A stretch of 32,976 nucleotides of DNA from Crocinitomix sp. (GTDB taxonomy: Bacteria; Bacteroidota; Bacteroidia; Flavobacteriales_D; Crocinitomicaceae): NCBI GenBank assembly GCA_013138735.1, contig WTCE01000154.1:1-32976 (forward strand). The letters are read 5' to 3'. Numbering within the stretch: the stretch's first letter is position 1; every line of letters begins with the position of its first letter. The position numbers and the translations under genes were made by a program. This document shows, piece after piece, positions 510 to 9,056 of this stretch. Below the pieces are notes generated by a model, which ran no database searches, was not told the origin of the DNA, and saw only the letters and a list, made by a program, of their open reading frames with translations.

Positions 510-2143
510 AGAAGGTAACAATCATGTGTCGGGTAAGTTCAGACGAGCAAGCCAAAGGATATAGCTTGGACGATCAATATGACCGTTTAACAGACTATTG
601 CAAAAGATGGGGATATGAGATTGTCCATGTCATTCGCGAAGATCATTCTGCTAAATCATTTGATCGACCCGAATGGAAGAAATGGATGAAGCTGGTTAAG
701 AAAAATGAATTGGAGACAGATGAATTACTCGTTACTTCATGGGACAGATTTTCAAGAGATTTAACAGACGGACTAAATGTAATAAGAGATTTAAGCAAAC
801 GGGGAATGACAGCGCAAGCAATAGAACAACCTGTTGACTTAAACATTCCCGACCAATGGATCATGCTAGCCGTTTACATGGCTGCCCCTGACGTTGACAA
901 TCAAAAACGTTCGATTAAAATTCGGCGCGGTGTTCGTCAAGGATTAAAAAATGGCTACTGGCCTCGTAAACCTTTCTTCGGTTTCATATCAGCTAGAAAT
1001 GAAGAAGGGAAACATATCATAGTTCATGATCCTGTAAAAGCACCAATCATTCGAGAGATATTTGAAGAGGTAGCCAAAGGCACACCCCAAAACGAAATTA
1101 GAGCTGACCTTGCTGAAAGAAAGATTAAGATTTCGCGGAACAATATGAGTAAAATGTTAAAGCGAATAATCTATATGGGTAAAATAGAAGTTCCTGCTTT
1201 AGACAAAGAACCAATGAAAATTGTAGAAGGAAGGCATGAGCCGATTGTAAGCGAGACTTTGTTCTATGAAGTACAACAAGCACTAGCAGGAAACCGAAAA
1301 GCAAGAGGTAAGTTTGAACCAAAATACACTAAACTGCGTGACGATTTCCATTTACGCGGTGTATTAAATTGTGACAAATGCAGTCACACCATGACGGCAA
1401 GCTATTCGAAAGGAAAATTAGGAAAACGTTACGGATACTATCATTGCAACCATTGTAAAAAACAAAGGGTATCAGCAATCAAAGTTCACAACGCTTTTGA
1501 TGAATTGTTAAAATCCATTCAAATTGAGCCTGAAATCATGTTGTTATATAATGCGCACTTAGAAGATGAAATGAAAATTTCGGAAGTGGACAACAAAGCG
1601 GAACTAAAAACACTCAAAGCGAAACTCGAACAAATTGAAAGTCGCTTGATAAAATCACAAGACTTGATGTTGGACGACATGCTAGATCCTTCGGAATATG
1701 TAAGTATCAAAGCACGCTATTTGAAACAAAAGAAAGACATTAAAGAGAGAATAGCCGATTTCAAAGCTTCTAAGCGAGAATTTTTAGACTTAGTAGAAAG
1801 TGGGCTACACTTGCTGGAGAATGTACGGGAAACCTACACCACAGGCAGCATTTATCTCAAACATAAGATCGTGGGTTCGATATTTATGGAACAGTTAAGT
1901 TTTGACGGAAAAATTTGTCGAACCCCAAAACTAAATCGAATATTTGACCTGTTTCCCAATATAGACAAAGGATTGGGAAAAGAAAAAAGGGGACAAGTTA
2001 AAGAAATTTTCAACTTATCCCCTTCTGCGGAGAGAGGGGGATTCGAACCCCCGTCATGTTACCATGAACACGCTTTCCAAGCGTGCGCGTTCAGCCACTC
2101 TGCCACCTCTCCTTATGTTTTGGACCGTTCAGCCTCCCGATAG
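506..2143 (+). CDS. Large serine recombinase (site-specific integrase) of an integrated element
   Basis: The 545-residue product has the resolvase/invertase catalytic domain: RVSSDEQ at residues 9-15 with Ser11 as the likely nucleophile, and WDRFSRD near residue 80 carrying the family's active-site arginines. Next comes the Recombinase domain (NQKRSIKIRRGVRQGLKNG, then GYWPRKPFFGF), a zinc ribbon with C289-x2-C292 and C314-x2-C317, and a coiled-coil-rich region from about 355 to 440. This is the standard order of large serine integrases, which join attP and attB with no high-energy cofactor. The start overlaps the upstream gene by ATGA. The C-terminus is odd: from about residue 508 the frame reads through the antisense of the tRNA-Ser gene (ERGGFEPPS is the reversed T-arm) and stops at 2141-2143 in a palindrome beyond the tRNA 5' end. 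The last ~45 residues are therefore probably site-derived rather than family sequence. Element cargo would lie to the left of the window. Confidence 0.9.
   Translation: MKKVTIMCRVSSDEQAKGYSLDDQYDRLTDYCKRWGYEIVHVIREDHSAKSFDRPEWKKWMKLVKKNELETDELLVTSWDRFSRDLTDGLNVIRDLSKRGMTAQAIEQPVDLNIPDQWIMLAVYMAAPDVDNQKRSIKIRRGVRQGLKNGYWPRKPFFGFISARNEEGKHIIVHDPVKAPIIREIFEEVAKGTPQNEIRADLAERKIKISRNNMSKMLKRIIYMGKIEVPALDKEPMKIVEGRHEPIVSETLFYEVQQALAGNRKARGKFEPKYTKLRDDFHLRGVLNCDKCSHTMTASYSKGKLGKRYGYYHCNHCKKQRVSAIKVHNAFDELLKSIQIEPEIMLLYNAHLEDEMKISEVDNKAELKTLKAKLEQIESRLIKSQDLMLDDMLDPSEYVSIKARYLKQKKDIKERIADFKASKREFLDLVESGLHLLENVRETYTTGSIYLKHKIVGSIFMEQLSFDGKICRTPKLNRIFDLFPNIDKGLGKEKRGQVKEIFNLSPSAERGGFEPPSCYHEHAFQACAFSHSATSPYVLDRSASR
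1983..2022 (-). terminator. Intrinsic terminator of tRNA-Ser, inside the recombinase reading frame
   Basis: Arms 1989-1999 (GGGGACAAGTT) and 2012-2022 (AACTTATCCCC) pair with one A-C mismatch and a 12-base loop. Read on the minus strand the hairpin is followed by six T. It begins 5 bases past the tRNA 3' end, so it fits a terminator for the tRNA transcript. It lies within codons of the plus-strand recombinase, so both genes use the same bases. Confidence 0.75.
2028..2112 (-). tRNA. tRNA-Ser, anticodon GGA
   Basis: Read on the minus strand this is an 85-base class II tRNA: acceptor GGAGAGG pairs with TCTCTCC (one G-T pair), discriminator G73, anticodon stem CACGC/GCGTG with loop TTGGAAA (anticodon GGA, reads UCC/UCU), a long variable arm (TCATGGTAACATGA), and T-arm GGGGG-TTCGAAT-CCCCC. 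The 3' CCA is not encoded. The 3' end abuts the integrated element, in line with use of tRNA genes as attachment sites by integrases. The recombinase frame runs antisense through the full length of the gene. Confidence 0.96.
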
Positions 2144-2165
2144 CTATCGAGACACCCACCTCTCC
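2126..2165 (-). repeat. tRNA-Ser 5'-end copy carrying an 18-base palindrome, in the tRNA leader
   Basis: On the minus strand 2165-2156 is GGAGAGGTGG, identical to tRNA-Ser bases 1-10, and 2134-2126 is GGCTGAACG, identical to tRNA bases 17-25. Between them, in place of the six D-loop bases CAGAGT, are GTG plus the palindrome TCTCGATAGCTATCGGGA (2152-2135). A 13-base linker then leads to the real tRNA. The arrangement closely matches the tRNA-Leu leader at 8957-8993. Confidence 0.8.
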
Positions 2166-2193
2166 AATAATTTGCGTTGTTTAACGCGGGCTG

Positions 2194-2223
2194 CAAATAT
2201 AGTGATTTGTTGCAACTGACAAA
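2194..2223 (-). promoter_or_regulatory. Promoter of tRNA-Ser
   Basis: On the minus strand TTTG (2223-2220), an 18-base spacer and TATATTTG (2201-2194) match the Bacteroidota primary sigma consensus TTTG/TAnnTTTG. Transcription would start near 2187, leaving a leader of about 75 bases. A small hairpin GCGTT-AAAC-AACGC follows directly. Confidence 0.75.
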
Positions 2224-8855: not shown

Positions 8856-8861
8856 CTGTAG

Positions 8862-8943
8862 TGCGGGTGGAGGGACTCGAACCCACACGCCGTGAAGCAC
8901 TAGATCCTAAGTCTAGCATGTCTACCAATTTCACCACACCCGC
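8862..8943 (-). tRNA. tRNA-Leu, anticodon UAG
   Basis: An 82-base class II tRNA on the minus strand: acceptor GCGGGTG pairs with CACCCGC, discriminator A73, D-arm GTGGTGAAATTGGTAGACAT, anticodon stem CTAGA/TCTAG with loop CTTAGGA (anticodon TAG, reads CUA-type leucine codons), variable arm GTGCTTCACGGCGT, and T-arm TGTGG-GTTCGAG-TCCC. CCA is not encoded. A strong promoter and a terminator make it a single-gene transcript. Confidence 0.96.
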
Positions 8944-8956
8944 AATAATCTAAGTG

Positions 8957-8993
8957 ATGTCTACTTACCGAAAGTTATCGGGATCATCACACC
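8957..8993 (-). repeat. tRNA-Leu 5'-end copy carrying a related palindrome, in the tRNA leader
   Basis: On the minus strand 8993-8984 is GGTGTGATGA, matching tRNA-Leu bases 4-13 (GGTGTGGTGA) at 9 of 10, and 8964-8957 is GTAGACAT, identical to tRNA bases 19-26. Between them the D-loop bases are replaced by TCCCGATAACTTTCGGTA (8983-8966) plus one A. A 13-base linker, CACTTAGATTATT, leads to the real tRNA; its CTTAGAT resembles the anticodon loop CTTAGGAT. The layout matches the tRNA-Ser leader at 2126-2165. Confidence 0.75.
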
Positions 8994-9025
8994 TTTATAA
9001 TTCTTCACTTTTGAAGAAGGGAGTG

Positions 9026-9056
9026 CAAAGATAAGGGGATTTTTTATTCAACCAAA
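9026..9056 (-). promoter_or_regulatory. Promoter of tRNA-Leu
   Basis: On the minus strand TTTG (9056-9053), a 19-base spacer and TATCTTTG (9033-9026) match the Bacteroidota consensus. It is followed by a hairpin with 7-base arms, TTCTTCA-AAAG-TGAAGAA (9018-9001). The distance from the -7 element to the tRNA is 82 bases, against 81 for tRNA-Ser. Confidence 0.8.

Follow-up and report, generated by a model that had tools for sequence, protein, structure and literature searches.

Two tRNA genes lie in the 32,976-nucleotide stretch of Crocinitomix sp. DNA that we analysed (hereafter the window), and each is preceded by a partial copy of itself that is interrupted by a related palindrome. How such a layout could arise at two different tRNA genes, with each copy matching its own neighbour, is the question that this locus raises, and the initial annotation had left a choice between a recurrent process and a conserved regulatory layout. 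The features of the two leaders are as follows, with the basis of each in brackets.

8861..8943, minus strand: tRNA-Leu(tag), intact (ARAGORN; Rfam RF00005)
8944..8956, minus strand: Leu linker, 13 nt, with GATTATT at its tRNA-side end, compare GAATTAT before the copy (sequence)
8957..8964, minus strand: Leu copy of nucleotides 19-26 of its own tRNA, GTAGACAT, 8/8 (sequence)
8966..8983, minus strand: Leu variant of the palindrome PAL18, TCCCGATAACTTTCGGTA, three mismatches to the family sequence (palindrome search)
8984..8993, minus strand: Leu copy of nucleotides 4-13 of its own tRNA, GGTGTGATGA, 9/10 (sequence)
9001..9018, minus strand: Leu hairpin at the transcript start, TTCTTCA-AAAG-TGAAGAA (sequence, congener comparison)
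9026..9033, minus strand: Leu -7 promoter box, TATCTTTG (sequence; Bacteroidota promoter type)
2027..2112, minus strand: tRNA-Ser(gga), intact (ARAGORN)
2113..2125, minus strand: Ser linker, 13 nt (sequence)
2126..2134, minus strand: Ser copy of the 3' side of its own tRNA D-arm, GGCTGAACG (sequence)
2135..2152, minus strand: Ser PAL18, one mismatch, in place of D-loop AGT (palindrome search, copy alignment)
2153..2165, minus strand: Ser copy of nucleotides 1-13 of its own tRNA, GGAGAGGTGGGTG, 11/13 by eye and 11/14 by script (sequence)
2174..2187, minus strand: Ser hairpin at the transcript start, GCGTT-AAAC-AACGC (sequence, leader folding)
2194..2201, minus strand: Ser -7 promoter box, TATATTTG (sequence; Bacteroidota promoter type)

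The element common to both leaders, PAL18, is an 18-bp perfect palindrome, TCCCGATAGCTATCGGGA, that lies inside partial copies of the adjoining tRNA gene; at up to three mismatches it occurs at 2 places in the window and at none in 100 dinucleotide shuffles of it. All parts of the two leaders (-7 box, hairpin, copy, palindrome and 13-nt linker) re-read as first described, including the 14 of 18 identical positions between the palindromes and the matches of the two Leu copy parts to tRNA nucleotides 4-13 and 19-26; the -7 boxes are of what we take to be the Bacteroidota promoter type. The Ser copy fits the loss of three D-loop bases, and the best alignment of the Leu copy has four tRNA bases (AATT) missing at the PAL18 site, not three. 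The 22-nt distance between palindrome and tRNA is indeed common to both leaders but coincidental, as the corresponding gap of upstream copies spans 15 to 131 nt. That the pair is not one shared element pasted twice is true of the tRNA copies, which are local, but not of the palindrome, which both have in common.

The genome of the window (G000; 6.84 Mb, 188 contigs, 44 Rfam tRNA matches) contains 43 matches to PAL18 at up to three mismatches, whereas the reversed control gives 2. At up to one mismatch, five of its six places lie in tRNA leaders (Leu(gag), Ser(gct), Met, Ser(gga) and Arg(tcg)), and at the sixth, on contig C70, AGT is by eye swapped for the palindrome within a sequence that occurs twice nearby. 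The congener G007 has 8 of 10 such sites in the leaders of Leu(taa), Gly, Leu(gag), Leu(caa), Leu(tag) and Gln, the other two, on contig C8, having no tRNA within the 1.6 kb inspected. One of three PAL18 sites in G009 is a tRNA copy; no own-tRNA copy was found at the three sites of G003 or the single site of G005.

In one set of loci, 143 distinct PAL18 sites at up to two mismatches were scored; 72 have a tRNA within 250 bp, and in 64 of these the flanks match the neighbouring tRNA at 13 or more of 18 positions. The typical upstream copy runs from nucleotide 1 to 13 or 14 of its own tRNA, continues with PAL18 and resumes the tRNA from nucleotide 17 or 18. Exactly three tRNA bases are missing in 50 of 54 upstream copies (49 of 53 on a recount in which one tie falls otherwise), in a sample many of whose loci (L117-L148) were preselected by a GCTC-PAL-TGG pattern that favours the three-base result. 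Once L117-L148 are removed, the gap is three in 16 of 20 upstream copies, across 12 anticodon types, and the four deviating copies are a Cys copy with gap 2, two Leu(taa) copies with gap 4 and the Leu(tag) copy of L173 with gap 5; the window Leu copy, with three palindrome mismatches, lies outside the 54. The missing triplet is always A-N-Y in the 55 gap-3 copies (50 upstream, 5 downstream), as AGT (33), ACT (6), AGC (6), AAT (5) or ATT (5).

Upstream copies precede tRNAs of 21 anticodon types, and on average 16.1 of 18 flank positions match their own tRNA, compared with 11.2 for other isoacceptors. Taken alone, the 13-of-18 threshold is lenient, since D-arms are similar to one another: of 2160 pairings with other isoacceptors, 388 passed it too. 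A stricter test masked the tRNAs and searched each leader for the 5' 14-mer of its own tRNA at 12 or more matches, with tRNAs of other amino acids as controls. Own copies were present in 8/46 leaders of G000, 6/39 of G007 and 0/30 of G006, and control copies in 4/1956, 0/1414 and 0/838, respectively. The two window leaders fall below this cut-off because their copies have drifted. The phenomenon extends beyond the pair noticed at the outset. Downstream, own 3' 18-mers at 14 or more matches were found in 3/46 (G000), 2/28 (G006) and 1/38 (G007) cases, with controls at 1/1956, 0/780 and 1/1376. The recurrent process proposed in the initial annotation is strongly supported by these data, given that many tRNAs, in several families of the phylum, are accompanied by copies of themselves in which PAL18 interrupts the D-loop at the same position.

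The D-loop is not the sole position involved. PAL18 also occupies the T-loop of 3' tRNA copies located after intact Ala, Gly, Leu(caa) and Asn genes, a terminator-like hairpin separating gene and downstream copy at Asn of G012, and a decayed T-loop copy lies downstream of Trp. Tandem units occur at Leu, Gln, Ala and Val leaders, together with a Gly-like array at a contig end (L129), and in some leaders (fMet of G000, L148 and L123) the copy is longer and has a different palindrome in its anticodon arm.

Several related arrangements were observed alongside these. A second palindrome family, TCCGTC..GACGGA, occupies the anticodon loop of the leader copy in L018 (G000 fMet) and L148. A second hairpin module, TACGCC-GGTT-GGCGCAC, and its relatives sit in the D-loop of own copies in L025, L013 and L010, which are the Gly(gcc), Gly(tcc) and Ala(ggc) leaders of G000; the part after the hairpin is common to the Gly and Ala leaders, yet the 5' part matches each own tRNA. 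The Arg(tcg) leader of G007 (L222) contains an own copy, GGCTCCGTAGTTCAAC, followed by the inverse complement of its end; this arrangement is present twice in tandem, lacks PAL18 and has the form of a foldback or template switch. Finally, odd tRNA genes (Ser, Cys, Gln, Leu, Pro and Tyr) form a compact array in L049/L020 (G000:C175:1-1900), where the spacers contain additional Pro and Cys 3' ends.

Relatives of the window genome differ in whether they carry the unit at all. Orthologous Leu(tag) leaders beside trigger factor were recovered at 30 loci, from 59 genomes with a match, and a PAL18-like sequence is present in three of them (G000, G007 and G055), with differing gaps and linkers; conservation among relatives, which the regulatory alternative had implied, was not observed. 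In the nearest congener examined, G006, whose trigger factor is 88% identical, the unit is absent from the Leu(tag) leader, and no PAL18 at up to one mismatch was found in the assembly (98% complete). Leader lengths after the -7 box in G000 and G006 are 113 versus 45 bases at Gly(gcc), 158 versus 51 at fMet, 119 versus 51 at Gly(tcc) and 82 versus 36 at Leu(tag). According to the alignments, the excess in G000 (68, 107, 68 and 46 bases, respectively) corresponds in each pair to one block composed of own copy, hairpin and linker; the Ser(gct) pair could not be usefully aligned, and Leu(caa) only partly. Filled and empty alleles of the copy-plus-hairpin unit are found in near relatives at these four tRNAs. 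The inserts at Gly and fMet contain hairpins other than PAL18, so that the filled and empty pairs support the unit as such, and PAL18 itself only at Leu(tag). The unit of own copy and hairpin is the general phenomenon, and PAL18 is one of its hairpins. By eye, the Gly(gcc) block is flanked by direct repeats of ~21 nt with one mismatch, and since tandem duplication can create such a repeat-flanked unit and recombination can remove it cleanly, the direction of change is not polarised. Judged from these sequence comparisons, the PAL18 leader unit does not appear to be a conserved element.

PAL18 is not confined to tRNA neighbourhoods. The extended pattern GCTC-PAL18-TGG yielded 32 stretches in 84,980 species genomes, every record labelled as a Bacteroidota group, isolates (Aequorivita, Gelidibacter) included; in 27 of these stretches a tRNA is preceded by a copy that resembles its own sequence. 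Of 198 genomes sampled across the phylum, 18 contain exact PAL18, all of them among the 49 genomes of the window's class and none among the 149 others. In samples not chosen for tRNAs, a tRNA lies within 250 bp at 1 of 36 viral-contig sites and, taking the first locus in each of 17 class genomes, at 1 of 19 class sites. Only certain lineages, above all G000 and G007 among those seen, thus show a strong association with tRNAs. Elsewhere, PAL18 occurs in unrelated intergenic repeats, including GAATTAC-type heptamer repeats in G011, and in the loop of some terminator-like hairpins or inverted repeats (L124, L273, L275 and L289), and by eye the A-N-T swap recurs in non-tRNA repeats. Pairing between flanks is better at 25 viral-contig sites than in all 500 permutations, weak at the first 45 sites (9 of 300 permutations reach the observed value) and not exceptional at 17 class sites (where 91 of 500 permutations do so at flank 14, and 69 at flank 20). 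Targeting of hairpin loops is likely for some sites and not proven as a general rule. In G012 (L179 and L180), small reading frames, several of them lipoprotein-like by eye, stand in rows with an intergenic repeat between them, and PAL18 occupies a constant position in this repeat.

The leaders that accommodate these units are themselves structured. After exclusion of 18 leaders without a -7 match and 6 that are too short, the 22 scored of the 46 G000 leaders, some of which include an upstream tRNA gene, fold with a mean z of -3.01, all 22 below -1, compared with +0.16 for 60 random windows of the window sequence. The 30 orthologous Leu(tag) leaders, 27 of which lack PAL18, have a mean z of -1.81 with 24 below -1, counting one (L173) that was trimmed to 11 nt. 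Comparison of the hairpin at the start of the Leu(tag) transcript across four congeners reveals T-A pairs replaced by A-T and by C-G, and two of 28 cells are unpaired. Given these changes on both sides of the stem and leaders that fold better than shuffles, the structured leader is probably under selection, and hairpin-rich leaders are supported as a general feature that reaches beyond PAL18. The small hairpin near the -7 box, first reported as a shared peculiarity of the two window leaders, is present in both but not special: most of the 22 scored G000 leaders have one within ~10 bases of the transcript start, often with CCGC or CTCGC stems, the sequence varying and the structure staying.

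Selection on RNA structure could in principle explain the units as well, with the leader stabilising the 5' end of the precursor tRNA, aiding its processing or insulating it, and PAL18 copies being one source of hairpins. The folding scores of G000 and orthologous Leu leaders and the two positions with both-side changes in the start hairpin agree with this account, as does the Ala leader, where the flanks of the copy are kept in G000 and G006 while the hairpins differ. It leaves unexplained, however, the own-tRNA copy, the three-base replacement and the 3' copies beyond a terminator-like hairpin, and the nearest congener manages with short leaders that lack a second hairpin at Gly(gcc), Ser(gct) and Leu(tag); as an explanation of the units, we regard it as rather unlikely. 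Hardly credible, in our estimate, is a leader copy that regulates its tRNA as a decoy or attenuator competing with the tRNA 5' half. The copy is located between a promoter-like box and the tRNA, and pairing with the tRNA 3' half is possible in principle, but the predicted folds keep leader and tRNA apart (0.79 expected leader-tRNA pairs for Leu and 0.47 for Ser), the minimum-energy fold leaves the tRNA as it is alone with the PAL18 unit adding one more hairpin, the two tRNAs are the only Rfam matches at gathering score in the window, and the copy is not conserved at orthologous leaders. A T-box or other tRNA-sensing leader was rejected for the window leaders, which have no family-model match and no predicted tRNA pairing. 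Of the conserved regulatory layout, the general hairpin-rich organisation is supported, with both-side changes in the Leu(tag) start hairpin; for the copy-plus-palindrome unit, which is sporadic among orthologues and variable in spacing and linker, such a layout is not supported.

Two further accounts invoke known mobile elements. Integration of phages or islands into tRNA genes also leaves partial tRNA copies, and a partial copy beside a complete gene is a usual trace of it (PMC9897764); the occurrence of T-loop and anticodon-loop places fits as well. Those traces nevertheless bracket ~9-23 kb (PMC9897764), as opposed to the 46-107 bp blocks of the four pairs compared here, in none of which an integrase-bearing element lies between the two tRNA copies. 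The same palindrome moreover recurs at D-loops, T-loops, hairpin loops and intergenic repeats, a 40-nt query of D-arm plus PAL has no match in the plasmid collection, and a tRNA copy accompanies 1 of 36 PAL sites in viral contigs, so we give integration scars very little credence. Movement of PAL18 as a REP element by a RAYT/Y1 transposase seems quite improbable. The palindrome is short, dispersed and sometimes in tandem pairs, Y1_Tnp matches exist in 31 of 40 genomes, and a Y1_Tnp frame at a contig end contains PAL18, or has it at its edge, at L079 (G009:C31:206-223). Among the PAL places listed, which end within G012 and include none from seven PAL-bearing genomes, however, this G009 site is the only one that touches a Y1 match (the next nearest noted is 2.7 kb away, G011:C55), no constant GTAG or CGTC tag stands beside PAL18 in the scored copies, where GTAG is near it only as part of some tRNA sequences and flanks vary with the host sequence, and Y1_Tnp occurs in 16 of 18 PAL-bearing and 15 of 22 PAL-free genomes, two PAL-bearing genomes having none. 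The comparison of Y1 transposases across these 40 genomes thus gave no clear association and no mobility enzyme tied to PAL18.

The IVP four-helix protein (PF05635) was likewise dismissed, its matches being present in 35 of 40 genomes whether or not they bear PAL, so that no association exists. An intervening sequence of the 23S rRNA type, for which a linked IVP (PF05635) gene would be expected, was set aside on the same grounds, though one PAL does lie beside one IVP gene, in a duplicated terminator-like hairpin. At L184 (G012:C1:3402000-3403200), an IVP (PF05635) gene directly follows the terminator-like hairpin of a tRNA-Leu, with a PAL18-bearing hairpin copy on its far side. Intervening sequences of rRNA have degenerate inverted-repeat flanks, and several IVP genes of relatives (L185-L202) are flanked by degenerate inverted repeats, for instance AGTACTTGGTACT in L185.

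We favour, with a probability of about 0.6, the view that PAL18 units derive from a tiny dispersed palindrome that is recurrently inserted together with a short duplication and is kept where hairpins are tolerated or favoured. Alignment of the copies and alleles demonstrates, as far as sequence can, that the segment is duplicated, that most copies have the triplet replaced, that this recurs at many tRNAs and that whole units are present in some congeners and absent from others. The leader element is a partial tandem duplicate comprising the leader end and the 5' part of the tRNA, usually nucleotides 1 to ~26 and sometimes more, in whose D-loop PAL18, a member of a palindrome family dispersed in this bacterial class, has replaced A14-N15-Y16, as a rule exactly three bases. 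Insertion and duplication may represent one event or two linked ones, through template switching or a transposition-like process at hairpins. Insertions would be found beside intact tRNAs because a palindrome in the sole copy of a tRNA would be lethal, and leaders would retain the units because hairpins are tolerated or favoured there. The units resemble what a very small DNA hairpin would leave behind on inserting again and again, and not a switch acting on the tRNA; a gene-regulatory role is not needed, and selfish or mutational insertion, tolerated by hairpin-rich leader space, explains them most simply. Pairing between copy and linker speaks to some extent against the insertion reading, as 6 of 50 pairings have z below -2, which selection on structure would also predict; the mean over these 50 units (of 54) is -0.57, and general linker-copy pairing (for example AGGTGCT/AGCACCT at Leu(gag)) was set aside with so mild a signal. 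A bolder form of the insertion reading, which we hold only tentatively and consider doubtful, is that PAL18 could be a mobile hairpin of 18 nt, one of the smallest known, which would recognise the loops of stem-loops in DNA or RNA, swap A-N-Y for itself and duplicate the target edge in the same event, rebuilding essential tRNA genes beside the interrupted copy.

The 16-nt core of PAL18 has no occurrence that we could find in the open-licence literature, where titles and abstract starts, among the matches listed, also hold no report of palindromes in tRNA copies of Bacteroidota; PAL18 tRNA-copy units are likely to be new in print. They point to a mutational or mobile process that would repeatedly strike the same few D-loop bases and leave an intact gene, in one bacterial class. 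The filled and empty alleles in congeners provide a testable case for the spread of tiny palindromes, which is an open question for REP- and SDR-like repeats, and the units are relevant to the annotation of tRNAs and to the question of why these bacteria have such structured tRNA leaders.

Among known systems, the Rickettsia palindromic elements are palindromes inserted into genes and form hairpins; they are longer than PAL18, lie in reading frames and belong to another phylum. The small dispersed repeats (SDR) of Nostoc and its relatives are dispersed hairpins of ~20 nt, often within tandem heptamer repeats, and are thought to be mobile. PAL18 resembles them as a dispersed hairpin of ~20 nt inserted in repeats, including the GAATTAC-type heptamers of G011, but occurs in another phylum with another sequence, and it differs in being a perfect palindrome with a usual A-N-Y replacement that in some lineages lies within partial tRNA duplicates. 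High copy numbers are typical of REPs, whereas PAL18 reaches up to tens of copies per genome. Partial tRNA genes generated by integrating elements share with PAL18 units the partial copy beside a complete tRNA (PMC9897764), but in the accessible part of that source kilobase islands lie between the copies and no common palindrome is described. SDR are named in PMC3116915. REP/REPIN sequences with their RAYT are, in the sections of PMC3733652 and PMC3116915 available, short palindromic repeats spread through the genome, as is PAL18, which lacks their constant GTAG/CGTC tag and has no consistent RAYT link. By analogy, PAL18 appears to work like the smallest of the dispersed hairpin repeats, SDR and REP/REPIN.
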